From Peptostreptococcaceae bacterium (GTDB lineage Bacteria; Bacillota_A; Clostridia; Peptostreptococcales; Anaerovoracaceae), in the NCBI GenBank assembly GCA_016650135.1, contig JAENWH010000084.1:1-7460 (forward strand): 7,460 nucleotides of DNA, given 5' to 3'. The position numbers and the translations under genes are program-made. Below the pieces are notes generated by a model. That model did not search any database. It was not told the DNA's origin and saw only the letters and a program-made list of their open reading frames with translations. Below are positions 2,677 through 7,460 of the stretch, piece by piece (position 1 is the stretch's first letter; the number at the start of each line of letters is the position of its first letter).

Positions 2677-4062
2677 ATGATGGGCAGTTTTTCATCACAA
2701 CCGGTCAAAAGAGCACGGATTCTCATTGTTGATGATGAGGAACAGATGTGTATCTCACTTAAAACCTTATTGGAAAACGAAGGTTTTGTTGTAGATATAG
2801 CGTTTAGTGTCCGTCAAGCTTTTTCATTAATTGCAAATCGATCTTATCAGTTGATTATTAGCGACATTCGAATGCCAGAAATGGGAGGGCTCTCATTTCT
2901 GGCTAGAATGGGTAGTAAAATACCCATGATAATGATTACAGCGCATGCTTCATTAATAACAGCCCGTCGTGCTTTTAAACTTGGAGCTTCCGATTATCTG
3001 GCAAAACCATTCAAATTTGATGAATTGCTTGTGGTTGTAAATCAGTTTATTAAGCAAGATCCTGTCAAAAGTGGTAATCCAGAATTTCTCTATTATATTA
3101 ATTCCAAAAATCAAGAATACCTGCGGGTTTTAGAACTTGCACAAAAATTCAGTACTACGGATCTTCCAATTTTAATTACTGGGGAGAGTGGAACTGGAAA
3201 AGAGGTTATTACTGATTATATTTACCAGTTCAATAAGGACGTTGTTAAGCCTGAAGCCTTTGTTAAAATCAATTGTGCAGCCATTCCCATTGATTTATTG
3301 GAGAGTGAATTGTTCGGATACGAAAAGGGTGCATTTTCTGGAGCTACCTCTTCTCGTTCTGGTAAAATAGAGGAAGCTCACAATGGAATTTTATTACTCG
3401 ACGAAATTGGAGACATGCCATTGGTCTTACAAGCTAAAATCCTTAGAGTCGTACAGGATTTGAAAGTATATCATGTTGGGTCGAATAAGGCGATTGCAGT
3501 CAATGCTCGGATAATTGCAGCCAGTAACCAAGATTTGAATGAACTTGTGCAAGAAGGTAAGTTTCGGCTTGATTTATATTATAGATTAAAAGGTGTACAT
3601 CTTCATTTACCGGCCTTGCGTGATCGAAGGGAAGATATCCCCTGTCTAACAAATTATTTTCTTGAGAAATATGCTAAGAAGTATCAAAAGCCAATAATGG
3701 GAGTTTCTCCTGGGGTTGAGAAATTATTTATGTCCTATAATTGGCCTGGAAATATTCGTGAATTGAAGTATTGTATTGAACGGTCAGTGGTCGTATGTGA
3801 CGAGACAAAACTATTGGTATCCGATTTACCTGATAATATTACTATTGATGAGAGTAGGACGAGTTTTGCGAACGAAACTTTTAGCGAATTTCAACCCAAT
3901 GCATTGGATGCGTATCGAAATGAGTACATGAGAAAAATAATATTACAGATGCTTGAAAAGACAAATGGTAATAAACAGGAAGCTGCAAAATTACTAAACA
4001 TCAGTAGGCAGACGTTGTATAATCGTATGAAAGAATTGGATATACAAAATGAATACCGATAA
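2677..4062 (+). CDS. Sigma-54-dependent response regulator (NtrC/AtoC type)
   Basis: Cytoplasmic DNA-binding activator, 461 residues, with the full three-domain plan. Receiver domain (about 13-125): acidic pocket D19/D20, phospho-acceptor D63 in ISDIRMPE, T88 and K110. AAA+ sigma-54 interaction domain (about 140-375): Walker A GESGTGKE 169-176, sigma-54 contact loop GAFSGA 218-223 (a Ser for Thr variant of GAFTGA), Walker B LLLDEIGD 239-246, arginine-finger region FRLDLYYRL 296-304 and sensor II WPGNIREL 356-363. Fis-type helix-turn-helix at about 430-455 (EAAKLLNISRQTLYNRMKEL). The ATG at 2677 has AGGAG (2667-2671) 5 bp upstream; an adjacent ATG at 2680 is a minor alternative. It overlaps the kinase gene by 14 bp, so the kinase is its likely partner. 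The sigma-54 promoter before the glycyl radical enzyme is the obvious target; that link is inferred. Confidence 0.96.
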   Translation: MMGSFSSQPVKRARILIVDDEEQMCISLKTLLENEGFVVDIAFSVRQAFSLIANRSYQLIISDIRMPEMGGLSFLARMGSKIPMIMITAHASLITARRAFKLGASDYLAKPFKFDELLVVVNQFIKQDPVKSGNPEFLYYINSKNQEYLRVLELAQKFSTTDLPILITGESGTGKEVITDYIYQFNKDVVKPEAFVKINCAAIPIDLLESELFGYEKGAFSGATSSRSGKIEEAHNGILLLDEIGDMPLVLQAKILRVVQDLKVYHVGSNKAIAVNARIIAASNQDLNELVQEGKFRLDLYYRLKGVHLHLPALRDRREDIPCLTNYFLEKYAKKYQKPIMGVSPGVEKLFMSYNWPGNIRELKYCIERSVVVCDETKLLVSDLPDNITIDESRTSFANETFSEFQPNALDAYRNEYMRKIILQMLEKTNGNKQEAAKLLNISRQTLYNRMKELDIQNEYR

Positions 4063-5875
4063 TAACCTGTCGGAAGAGATATGTGCGTTTGAATGTGTAG
4101 TTCTGAAGGATATGCCATTTTCATATTCCTTCTCTGTTGACAGTAATTCTATACACTCTTTGTTCTCAGATAATCCCCAGGTTTCCTTAGGACTGCTACG
4201 ATGTCTAGCAGGTTTTGAACATCCAATAGAAGGAAACATCATTCTAGGTGGTCGCAAATATCGAAGGTTAAATTCTAAAAAAGCTGTTCAATTGGGAATC
4301 GAGATTGTTGATACCAGTAATAAAACATTTTCCGATATGTCGGTACTAGAGAATATCTATTGTGAACGTAAGCATTCTGGATTAAGCCATGCACAATCGA
4401 GGGCTTTGGCTAAGCGGCAATTCATGGAATTAATTCACATAGTTGGAGTTAATATTGACCTTAAGCGGCAAATCAAAGAACTTGCGCCTGCAGAACGAAA
4501 ACTAATTGAACTATTTAGGAGTATTATTGCTAATCCCCGATTACTTTGTCTTGAGGAAGGTGTCCTAAGGGATATCGAAGATTATCTGTTTCCTGGAATT
4601 CGCAAACACCTTCGAGCAATATTACTTGATATGGTAAATAATGGTTTAACGTTGTTAATAGCCTCCAATGATATGAATGAAATCTCTACATATTCGAATC
4701 GAGTCAGTATTTTTAAGCAGAATGGGGAGGCTAGAACAATAAATGTTGCACAAGTTGATAAATACTATCTAATGCAAATAGCCTACGGGTTTATAACCAA
4801 TAAAACAGAATTAGCTCAAGATAATTTTGAATTGTTTTATTATCAACAACTTTACCAAGAAATTATTAATAGCTTAATTTTCCCGATAATAGCAACGGAT
4901 ACCCATCACAACATTATCATTCATAATCAGGAGATAAAGAAGGTATATTTTGATAATCAAGAGAATTTGATTGGTAAGAAGATTCAAGAAGTCTTGGGTT
5001 TATCAAAAAAAATCATTAGTGATATTGAAAAAGAATTATTATTTATACCTGAAACTCGTGTATTCAGATTGCCCGATATTTTTGAAAATACTAATATTTT
5101 TGTTTCTCCCATTATGGATAACATGGGGTCTTATATGGGGATGTTGTATGTTTTCAATAAAAACGGGAATAGTGAATCATTGTTCGGTTCATATCTTAAC
5201 AAAGCCAATGATATCAACTATGAGTATAAAATTAGTGAGCTGATACATGAAGTTAAGAATCCTTTGAATATCATGCTTAATTATTTAAGTCTCATTCAAA
5301 AAGAAAGTTCATTGCAAACTATTAAGAAAGAATCGGAATTTATTGCACGGGAAGTTTCCCGGATAAATCGATTATTGGAAAAACTAAATAATAAAAAGAT
5401 AGGTGAGGTATCAATAAAAACTAATAAAATATTCTATCAAGTGCTTATTAAAGATATCTATGAGTTTTTTGGGCCTACTATGAAAGAAAAGCATATTGAA
5501 TTGCATTACGAGTTGGACGGTTTATATTGTATTGGAGTTGATGATGATTCGTTACGACAAGTTTTCATTAATATCATCTTAAACGCGATTGAAGCTATGA
5601 CTTTGGGGGGGATGATAAAAATCACAGGGAAATGTATCAACGATGATGGAATTGATTATGTAGAAATAAAGGTAAATGATAATGCAGGTGGAATACTTCC
5701 AGCATGTCTTCCTTACATTTTCAATCCTTTTTACACCACTAAAATTAATCAAAATTCACATGGAATAGGGCTTTCTGTTACTCGAGAAATTGTTGAACGA
5801 TTAGGTGGAGCGATAGAGGTGGATAGTGAAGTGGGTGTTGGCAGCACGTTTACACTTACGCTCAAGCAGCAATAA
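4049..5875 (+). CDS. Cytoplasmic histidine kinase with an N-terminal degenerate ABC-ATPase-like domain and a PAS domain
   Basis: A 608-residue sensor kinase with no signal peptide or membrane segment. Residues about 30-245 follow one ATPase domain of the RbsA family with few or no gaps: IH 35-36, LAGFEHP..G 53-62, SVLENI 98-103, ELAPAERKLIEL 144-155, LLCLEE 165-170, NGL..LIAS 198-206. The catalytic sites are lost: Walker A is SDNPQVSLG (40-48, no Lys), Q-loop Gln is missing, LSVAQ is LAPAE, the Walker B Asp is Glu169, and the H-loop His is Asn207. A PAS-like domain follows (about 270-370). Then come the kinase H-box HEVKNPLN with His400, N-box around Asn512, G1 DNAGGI 544-549, F-box FNPFYTTK 558-565 and G2 GIGLSVTR 572-579, all intact, so the kinase itself should be active. 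The ATG at 4049 lies inside the regulator gene with only a weak GGA upstream, which suggests translational coupling. The ABC-like domain probably senses rather than hydrolyses ATP (inference). Confidence 0.94.
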   Translation: MNTDNNLSEEICAFECVVLKDMPFSYSFSVDSNSIHSLFSDNPQVSLGLLRCLAGFEHPIEGNIILGGRKYRRLNSKKAVQLGIEIVDTSNKTFSDMSVLENIYCERKHSGLSHAQSRALAKRQFMELIHIVGVNIDLKRQIKELAPAERKLIELFRSIIANPRLLCLEEGVLRDIEDYLFPGIRKHLRAILLDMVNNGLTLLIASNDMNEISTYSNRVSIFKQNGEARTINVAQVDKYYLMQIAYGFITNKTELAQDNFELFYYQQLYQEIINSLIFPIIATDTHHNIIIHNQEIKKVYFDNQENLIGKKIQEVLGLSKKIISDIEKELLFIPETRVFRLPDIFENTNIFVSPIMDNMGSYMGMLYVFNKNGNSESLFGSYLNKANDINYEYKISELIHEVKNPLNIMLNYLSLIQKESSLQTIKKESEFIAREVSRINRLLEKLNNKKIGEVSIKTNKIFYQVLIKDIYEFFGPTMKEKHIELHYELDGLYCIGVDDDSLRQVFINIILNAIEAMTLGGMIKITGKCINDDGIDYVEIKVNDNAGGILPACLPYIFNPFYTTKINQNSHGIGLSVTREIVERLGGAIEVDSEVGVGSTFTLTLKQQ

Positions 5876-5889
5876 TCATTTTTCATTAT

Positions 5890-5911
5890 TATGTAAAAAA
5901 GTTTTTACATA
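5890..5911. repeat. 22-bp A/T-rich inverted repeat, 10-bp arms
   Basis: TATGTAAAAA and TTTTTACATA flank a central AG, giving perfect 10-bp arms 14 bp after the kinase stop codon. It lies about 243-264 bp upstream of the -24 element. It may be a binding site for a dimeric regulator, possibly the Fis-type activator, or part of a weak end-of-operon hairpin. The two-base centre and lack of a U-run directly after make a classic terminator less likely. Confidence 0.5.
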
Positions 5912-5951: not shown

Positions 5952-5977
5952 GCCACAAGCAACGGGGTATCAACCCC
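5952..5977. repeat. Diverged direct repeat, copy 1, with GGGG-N6-CCCC core
   Basis: This 26-bp segment matches 6101-6126 at 20 of 26 positions without gaps, 149 bp apart. Shared core: GCC, AAG, ACGGGG, AT, ACCCC. In this copy GGGGT/ACCCC (5964-5968 and 5973-5977) can form a hairpin. The same G run can instead pair with ACCCTG (5947-5952), so two folds compete. It may be a regulator site or a decayed dispersed repeat. Confidence 0.55.
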
Positions 5978-6100: not shown

Positions 6101-6126
6101 GCCCCAAGGGACGGGGAATTTACCCC
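6101..6126. repeat. Diverged direct repeat, copy 2, merging into a C9 run
   Basis: Second copy of the 26-bp repeat (20 of 26 identical to 5952-5977). Its GGGG-N6-CCCC core runs into nine consecutive C residues (6123-6131). It ends about 28 bp before the -24 element, close enough to affect promoter geometry or closed-complex stability. Confidence 0.55.
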
Positions 6127-6151: not shown

Positions 6152-6169
6152 TTGGCATGAAAAGTGCAA
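6152..6169 (+). promoter_or_regulatory. Sigma-54 (-24/-12) promoter for the glycyl radical enzyme gene
   Basis: TTGGCATG-AAAA-GTGCA matches the consensus YTGGCACG-N4-TTGCW at all but two positions (T for C in CACG, G for the first T of TTGC). The invariant GG (6154-6155) and GC (6166-6167) are separated by exactly 10 bp, as sigma-54 requires. Transcription should start near 6179, leaving a leader of about 35 nt before the ATG. A nine-A tract (6139-6147) just upstream may give intrinsic bending. The adjacent NtrC-type regulator gene supports the call. Confidence 0.85.
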
Positions 6170-6213: not shown

Positions 6214-7460
6214 ATGGATACAAAGTATAGCGATGAAACTTGTTTTTGCGCTAAAGAGAATCCGGAAACAGCAGAACCATTGCATTTTCAATTTCATATA
6301 ACCCCTAAAAGAACTAAAAGGGTTCAGGATTTATATGATTATGTAACTGGACAGAAGGCTGGGGTGTGTATTGAGAGGGCTCGATACTTTACTGAATCCT
6401 ACAAGCAGACGGAAGCTTTTCCGCACATTATGAGACGAGCTAAGGCGTTTAGTCATGCTTTAGAAAATGTTTCAATCTATGTCTTACCAAACAGTCTGCT
6501 AGTTGGAGGACACGCAAGCAAGCCAAACTATTCTCCACTTGCTCCAGATTTTTCAACATCCTTCATAAAAAAAGAAATCATAGGGGGAGATCCCTACTTT
6601 CTTCCAGACCGACCTTCCGATAAGTTTGAGTTAGATCCTGCAATTATTGAAGAATTGAAGGAAATTGCCGATTACTGGGATGGGAGAAATCATCAGGCCC
6701 ATGTATATGCCTATCTACCTGAAGAAATTCTTATTGCTCAAGATAAGATTGGTGTTATAAATGATTTGAACTATGTCATGGGTGGGGATGGCCATTATGC
6801 TCCTCCATATGATTGGCATATCAAGCATGGACTCCGTCATGTAATCAATGAAGCTAAAGCAGGACTTAAGAGAATTGATATCACATCAACTGAAGGTCTT
6901 GATCAGCAATCTTTCTATAAATCTGTGATTATCTCCAGTGAAGCGATGATAAAATGGGCTAACCGATTTGCTGATTTAGAAGAAAGTATGGCCAAAGAGG
7001 AAAAGGATCCTAAGCGTAGGGCTGAACTACTACAGATGGCTAAGATTGCTCGAAAAGTGCCAGAGTTTCCAGCAGAAACATATTGGGAAGCACTTCAGTC
7101 GATTACTTTCCTACAGCTCGGGGTACAAATTGAAGATAACCATCAGGCCGTGTGTCTTGGCCGTTTTGACCAAGTAATGAATGATGTATACCTAAAGGAT
7201 TTTGAGAGTGGTTTAATCACCCATGATTTTGCCCTAGAACTTCTTGAGAACTTTTTTATTATGCTTTCTCAAGTTGAGCGAATTAGAAGTTGGGAAGATA
7301 CTTCCTTCTTCCGTGGTAAACCTATTTTTCAAAACCTAACAATTGGTGGTATCGACCCGAAAACTGGAGAAGATGCAACTAATGAAATGACCTATCTTGT
7401 TCTTGAGTCAATTCAAAATACTCGGACTGTTCAACCTTCCCATTATGCTCGTTGGCATAA
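6214..7460 (+). CDS. Glycyl radical enzyme (pyruvate formate-lyase-like), N-terminal half; 3' end cut by window
   Basis: The frame is open to the right edge: 415 codons of a protein that in this family is usually around 800 residues. Family landmarks: GVCIERARYFTESY (about 50-63), PHIMRRAKAFSHALENVSIYV (about 70-90), the LVGGHASKPNYSPLAP segment, YWDGRNHQ (154-161), GGDGHYAPPYDWHIKHGL (about 190-207), and SFFRGKPIFQNLTIGGIDPKTGEDATNEMTY-like sequence (about 364-394). The catalytic Cys and the C-terminal glycyl loop lie beyond the window, so activity and subfamily cannot be confirmed. It resembles the dehydratase/C-S/C-N lyase branch (glycerol, propanediol, choline, hydroxyproline or sulfonate enzymes) in general layout; I cannot name the substrate. 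A radical SAM activase gene is expected downstream. It has its own sigma-54 promoter and strong ribosome binding site. Confidence 0.93.
   Translation, partial: MDTKYSDETCFCAKENPETAEPLHFQFHITPKRTKRVQDLYDYVTGQKAGVCIERARYFTESYKQTEAFPHIMRRAKAFSHALENVSIYVLPNSLLVGGHASKPNYSPLAPDFSTSFIKKEIIGGDPYFLPDRPSDKFELDPAIIEELKEIADYWDGRNHQAHVYAYLPEEILIAQDKIGVINDLNYVMGGDGHYAPPYDWHIKHGLRHVINEAKAGLKRIDITSTEGLDQQSFYKSVIISSEAMIKWANRFADLEESMAKEEKDPKRRAELLQMAKIARKVPEFPAETYWEALQSITFLQLGVQIEDNHQAVCLGRFDQVMNDVYLKDFESGLITHDFALELLENFFIMLSQVERIRSWEDTSFFRGKPIFQNLTIGGIDPKTGEDATNEMTYLVLESIQNTRTVQPSHYARWH

Follow-up and report, generated by a model that had tools for sequence, protein, structure and literature searches.

Kinases of the AtoS/ZraS type, which act together with NtrC-family regulators, share a PAS-HisKA-HATPase_c core with the histidine kinase analysed here, which is encoded in a stretch of DNA of 7,460 nucleotides from a Peptostreptococcaceae bacterium (hereafter, this whole stretch is called the window). 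The AtoS/ZraS-type kinases carry membrane-anchored sensors, whereas the kinase of the window has a pseudo-ABC domain and no clear membrane span. Catalytically dead copies of enzymes often turn into regulators. The N-terminal domain of this kinase resembles the first domain of the ATPases of CUT2 importers (RbsA/AraG/LsrA type) in its predicted fold, in the ABC profiles that match it best and in an alignment that runs through to the end of that first domain. However, a CUT2 ATPase has two such domains, whereas the kinase has one, joined to a kinase core, and in this one domain Walker A, the Q-loop and the H-loop are lost and the D-loop is five residues longer. As outlined in passages of one paper (PMC13022988), the CbrA/CbrB system contains a transporter part fused to a PAS kinase (SLC5-STAC-PAS-kinase) that drives a sigma-54 regulator; the idea of CbrA as a transceptor also appears in passages of another (PMC7096432). 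BceS has been proposed, in a passage of PMC10314905, to sense the conformational cycling of the ABC transporter BceAB. According to these passages, CbrA contains a whole membrane carrier, whereas the fused part in the window's kinase is just an ATPase-like ABC-importer subunit, and BceS touches its transporter through membrane helices and lipid, whereas the contact that we propose would be made by a dead ATPase copy; in neither system, as described there, is a dead ATPase used. We counted both precedents in favour of a kinase that reads a transporter. Our literature search of open-licence papers found no two-component kinase whose input domain is a dead ABC ATPase. The relevant passages of two papers naming ABC_tran contain no such fusion, and those of a 2005 signalling census hold nothing on fusions of an ABC ATPase with a kinase.

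The five genes of the window lie on the plus strand, to which all coordinates below refer, in the order importer ATPase, permease, response regulator, histidine kinase and start of a glycyl radical enzyme. The first gene (1-1479), whose 5' end is cut off, encodes a tandem sugar-importer ATPase (best NCBIfam model AraG), and the second (1490-2518) a sugar-importer permease (best model AraH), both scoring below the cut-off of the model concerned; we take this importer to be of the CUT2 class. No solved structure matched the importer ATPase at 1e-30; at 1e-8 there were 470 matches, and those listed (the best 60) were other ABC proteins. The first domain of this ATPase has an intact Walker A (GQNGAGKST). 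By eye, its second domain seems to lack the Walker A lysine and the H-loop histidine as well. A dead second ATPase domain is usual in importers of this class (RbsA type), which means that dead domains may have been tolerated before the fusion to a kinase arose. The third gene (2677-4062) encodes an NtrC-family response regulator with a receiver, a sigma-54 AAA+ domain and a Fis-type HTH (best NCBIfam model AtoC, below cut-off), and it overlaps the kinase gene (4049-5875) by 14 bases. The last gene (6214-7458), cut off at its 3' end by the window, was identified by profile matches as encoding a PFL-like glycyl radical enzyme; NCBIfam ranked PFL2-3 first, followed by sulfopropanediol dehydratase and choline lyase, and with this truncated piece none of these models reached its cut-off. 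About 31 residues precede its PFL-like domain. It should be noted that the gene neighbourhood of the kinase family was read at one locus, that of the present window.

The kinase has 608 residues and consists of a pseudo-ABC-ATPase domain (residues ~10-250; 4076-4798), a PAS-like region (residues ~268-371; 4850-5161), a HisKA domain with His400 (5240-5386) and a HATPase_c domain with N, G1, F and G2 boxes (5540-5869), the latter two placed by Pfam and the family alignment. The Pfam PAS match covers residues 268-315 and lies below cut-off, and the remainder of that region consists of predicted strands. A helix placed by the model and the alignment (residues 238-250; 4760-4798) leads from the pseudo-ABC domain towards the PAS-like region. 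By its HisKA histidine and HATPase_c boxes, as read from the sequence, the protein is a class-I histidine kinase; its best NCBIfam model is AtoS, below cut-off. HisKA and HATPase_c were found in all ten members of the family described below, and all ten keep the phospho-acceptor histidine, the N-box asparagine, the aspartate and last glycine of G1, the F box and the GIGL of G2; the first glycine of G1 is alanine in four of them, the window's kinase included. Averaged over 19 residues, Kyte-Doolittle hydropathy peaks in the kinase at 1.71 (residues 505-523, inside HATPase_c), compared with 2.46 in the permease, and the next separate peak among the five listed reaches 1.29. By this measure, a clear membrane span is lacking in the kinase, and so are a transporter domain of the CbrA type and paired membrane helices of the Bce type.

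A preliminary description of this locus had matched the N-terminal part of the kinase to a sugar-importer ATPase, and this resemblance is real: Pfam ABC_tran scored 36.6 bits (E 8e-9), above its cut-off of 25 bits. When the N-terminal 267 aa were compared with NCBIfam, LsrA came out on top (76 bits, E 1.8e-21); the top seven rows were ATPases of the tandem sugar-importer type (54-76 bits), and PotA (51.5 bits) preceded the xylose model (48 bits), none of the ABC models reaching its own cut-off, which applies to full-length members of the family. BLASTP aligned the kinase with the window's own importer ATPase at 21% over 236 columns (E 3e-12), an alignment that required 16 gap columns. With these gaps and a D-loop insertion of five residues, "few or no gaps", as originally stated, was nearly right. 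Structure prediction of the N-terminal domain, a check that had been set beforehand, returned an ABC ATPase fold, and by this modelled fold the domain is a member of the ABC ATPase superfamily by descent. Chance similarity or a different fold is ruled out by the NCBIfam matches together with the predicted ABC fold. Furthermore, in each of the five importer ATPases compared, a profile of the N-terminal domain scored the first domain higher than the second (62-87 versus 25-55 bits); four of these ATPases had been found by searching with the kinase family itself. The tandem architecture of the CUT2 type is absent, as a single nucleotide-binding domain is followed by the PAS-like region and the kinase. 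These sequence comparisons are best explained if the N-terminal domain descends from an importer ATPase of the RbsA/AraG type (CUT2), namely from its first nucleotide-binding domain.

The nucleotide-handling motifs were read off an alignment with five importer first domains, two of which are closely alike. In the Walker A equivalent (residues 40-48; 4166-4192), GQNGAGKST has become SDNPQVSLG, as had been reported, the lysine being replaced by Ser46. Homologues with an intact Walker A had been named at the outset as what would speak against a conserved pseudo-ATPase; of the nine members found that carry this region, none has one, the lysine being lost in all nine. In the equivalent of the Q-loop and permease-docking groove (residues 83-108; 4295-4372), the Q-loop glutamine is Thr89, and glutamine is lost in 9/9 members with the N-terminus. 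The reported change of the H-loop from SHR to SND also holds, with Asn207 (4667-4669) in place of the histidine and asparagine in all ten members. Two further changes are present in the sequence and had been given too much weight. Firstly, in the Walker B and D-loop equivalent (residues 164-180; 4538-4588), the replacement of LLDEP by CLEEG is mild, since the aspartate has become Glu169 and the acids are largely kept: the Walker B aspartate is glutamate in 10/10 members, and the position of the catalytic glutamate is glutamate in nine and aspartate in P0005. Secondly, the change of the signature from LSVAQ to LAPAE is weak evidence, as the five importer first domains aligned all lack LSGGQ, too. 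The most distant member, P0017 (39%), has the most ATPase-like Walker B (LLLLEEP), and its Walker A is nonetheless absent. The five additional D-loop residues are present in all nine domain-bearing kinases and absent from the five importer ATPases aligned. In the D-loop region (4562-4597), D175 and I176 are invariant in these nine kinases, and residues 172-179 are modelled as a helix.

The kinase family consists of ten proteins, the window's kinase (P0001, counted once) and nine relatives with 39-66% identity to it (P0002-P0007, P0016, P0017 and P0018). They were collected by searches over 5.8 billion proteins that reach relatives sharing exact words, one of which scored the best 7,996 candidates by shared words; the family thus comprises at least ten clusters at 90% identity and may well be larger, and kinases fused to other ABC domains could sit beyond the reach of these searches. 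The pseudo-ATPase is complete in nine of the ten. P0018 (457 aa, on a 254-kb contig) begins at about residue 153 and lacks the first ~150 residues, owing to a wrong start, a frameshift or a true partial loss; it was excluded from the counts of the N-terminal domain and from the 36 pairs compared below. Nine other rows bearing ABC_tran (P0008-P0015 and P0037) have no kinase domain in the precomputed Pfam annotation, and no intact Walker A was found among the ten family members. A scan of genome contigs, which reaches close relatives only, gave one chance match (L001 in G001), to the kinase part (residues 395-598, 24%). In 15 of 297 genomes of the phylum of G001, which has no known tie to the window, the domain was matched at E 1e-12 with at most nine candidates per genome in the rows listed; the best reached 61.5 bits, compared with at least 265 bits for seven kinases of the family. 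Viral contigs gave no match to the kinase, none of the 4,724 plasmid records matching it covers 80% of it, and the whole window as DNA found short matches only, in eight plasmid records. Rfam had no match in the window at gathering scores, and PADLOC returned a single weak match, on the HisKA region.

Mean identity over the 36 pairs was 52.0% for the pseudo-ATPase, 56.4% for the linker and PAS, 61.9% for the DHp and 48.5% for the catalytic domain. One decayed copy is ruled out, as the losses are common to all homologues found that bear the region, and the domain has kept its sequence as well as the catalytic domain has. The claim that the fold is kept while catalysis is lost stands, in that an ABC fold is predicted and the nucleotide motifs are gone across relatives 39-66% identical; sequence and model together support the view that the domain is a conserved pseudo-ATPase. 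Between the five importer first domains and the kinases, mean pair identity falls from 0.91 to 0.45 in the P-loop equivalent and from 0.65 to 0.59 in the H-loop region, and rises from 0.47 to 0.70 in the groove (residues 83-108), from 0.44 to 0.66 in the Walker B/D-loop region, a gain equal to that of the groove, and from 0.32 to 0.76 in the end helix (residues 238-250), against a rise from 0.40 to 0.53 for the whole domain, the kinases being more alike overall. In these alignments, it is clearly the P-loop that loses and the end helix that gains most. Compared with windows of equal length within the domain, the groove is in the top 1% and the end helix is beaten by none. Thirty-eight of the residues 26-250 are invariant in the nine kinases, and 21 of these are absent from all five importer domains; five of the 21 fall in the groove (P 0.077), four in the end helix (P 0.023) and three in the Walker B/D-loop region (P 0.20), all uncorrected. 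This weak enrichment in the groove and end helix is suggestive and is not proof.

The gap between the kinase and the enzyme gene contains candidate regulatory sites. A sigma-54 promoter-like site, TTGGCATGAAAAGTGCAA (6152-6169), has the form GG-N10-GC. Measured from the C of its GC, the site is 47 bases upstream of the start codon of the enzyme gene (ATG at 6214), a position that favours it as a promoter candidate. A scan of the window with the standard sigma-54 consensus gave 31 sites with at most three mismatches, where 25.7 were expected, which is no enrichment; TTGGCATGAAAAGTGCAA has two mismatches. A tighter pattern, composed after the site had been seen, matched the window only at 6152-6169 and at least once in 27 of 200 shuffles. 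Two dyads of the form GGGG-N6-CCCC (5964-5977 and 6113-6126) are candidate sites for the regulator; at least two such dyads occurred in 14 of 20,000 shuffles of the gap, the pattern having been chosen after inspection of the sequence. Read on the minus strand, the first dyad also resembles the stem of a terminator. Directly past the stop codon of the kinase gene lies a perfect inverted repeat, TATGTAAAAA / TTTTTACATA, with a 2-base spacer (5890-5911), which the terminator scan did not call. Scans of the window for sigma-70 promoters and terminators gave no excess over shuffles. The simplest reading of this arrangement is that the regulator, fed by the kinase, drives the glycyl radical enzyme; our literature search found no glycyl radical enzyme under two-component control.

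That the pseudo-ATPase serves as a sensor or docking module, as first suggested, we infer from its place in the protein, its conservation pattern and the gene neighbourhood. As the kinase has no clear membrane span, a signal from outside would have to come to it via a partner. The part of an ABC importer ATPase that follows the Q-loop lines a groove that accepts the coupling helix of the permease, and residues 83-108 are presumably the equivalent of this groove. The conserved groove, the top-conserved exit helix and the importer encoded beside the kinase together point to permease docking. We tentatively propose that the pseudo-ATPase retains the groove as its gripping site and that the kinase thereby docks on the adjoining importer permease. 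Substrate-bound or transport-active states of the permease would move the pseudo-ATPase, and this movement would be passed through helix 238-250 to the PAS-like region and the kinase core. His400 would then be phosphorylated and the phosphoryl group transferred to the NtrC-type regulator encoded upstream, which would bind the GGGG-N6-CCCC dyads so that the sigma-54 promoter of the glycyl radical enzyme fires. As a result, the enzyme would be made when the importer handles its substrate. We give this reading as a whole, from docking to the enzyme, a probability of roughly 0.4. Several points speak against it. Conservation extends beyond the groove, and the gain of the Walker B/D-loop region would suit a re-used cleft equally well. 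The adjoining tandem ATPase would rival the kinase for its site on the permease. The weak enrichment of family-specific invariant residues, the small set of five importer ATPases, the lack of enrichment of the sigma-54 consensus and the choice of promoter and dyad patterns after inspection also count against this reading.

The most probable reading besides docking is that the pseudo-ATPase is the receptor for a soluble metabolite of the pathway, bound in a remodelled cleft with the D-loop insertion, the importer being uninvolved. A kinase lacking a clear membrane span would suit such a receptor, the kept Walker B acids may mean that the cleft has a new use, and conservation is high in the Walker B/D-loop region, insertion included, its 0.66 being in the top 9% of windows. 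However, the P-loop equivalent, which would line the cleft, is merely average (0.45; 65% of windows equal or higher), and the groove and end helix are conserved more highly still. We regard a metabolite receptor as rather unlikely.

The B. subtilis ribose importer is described, in a structure-prediction study (PMC11466899), as RbsAC2B, with one tandem ATPase, two permeases and one degenerate site. The symmetry of a tandem ATPase sitting on two permeases would be matched by a dimer of the kinase, with its two pseudo-domains. The two pseudo-ATPases of the kinase homodimer may thus replace the tandem ATPase on the two-fold permease dimer, in which case binding protein and permease would transport nothing and would act as a transmembrane sensor that switches genes on or off; we hold this to be doubtful.

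Histidine kinases of this class act as dimers, and ABC domains pair naturally. From this, and from the invariance of K151, E154 and R157 of the signature helix in 9/9 kinases, the domain could be a scaffold that dimerises the kinase or pairs head to tail with the ATPase domains of the importer, with no contact to the permease. Yet the nucleotide sandwich that glues ABC pairs together is not expected without Walker A, and scaffolding alone leaves the conserved groove unexplained, which makes a scaffold improbable. Still less probable is that sensing actually falls to the PAS-like region and that the ABC remnant is a neutral relic: Pfam PAS is matched at E 0.1 or better by seven of the ten members, and histidine binding has been suggested, in a passage of PMC13022988, for the PAS domain of CbrA, but a relic should have drifted faster, whereas this domain matches the catalytic domain in conservation across the 36 pairs and is complete in 9/10 members. 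Finally, an unusual mode of nucleotide binding that makes the domain an ATP/ADP gauge, for which the Glu-Glu of the Walker B acids in 9/10 members could be cited, is the least probable of all with the Walker A lysine, the Q-loop glutamine and the H-loop histidine gone.

Returning to permease docking, the replacement of the usual sensor by a broken and well-preserved importer ATPase suggests that the kinase reads the state of the adjoining importer. If the domain docks on the importer, nutrient import and gene expression would be physically wired together, and how a kinase reads a transporter would become testable with one soluble protein in a compact system. If instead the two pseudo-ATPases stand in for the tandem ATPase, one permease would serve by turns as importer and as receptor, and an ABC importer would become a true receptor.
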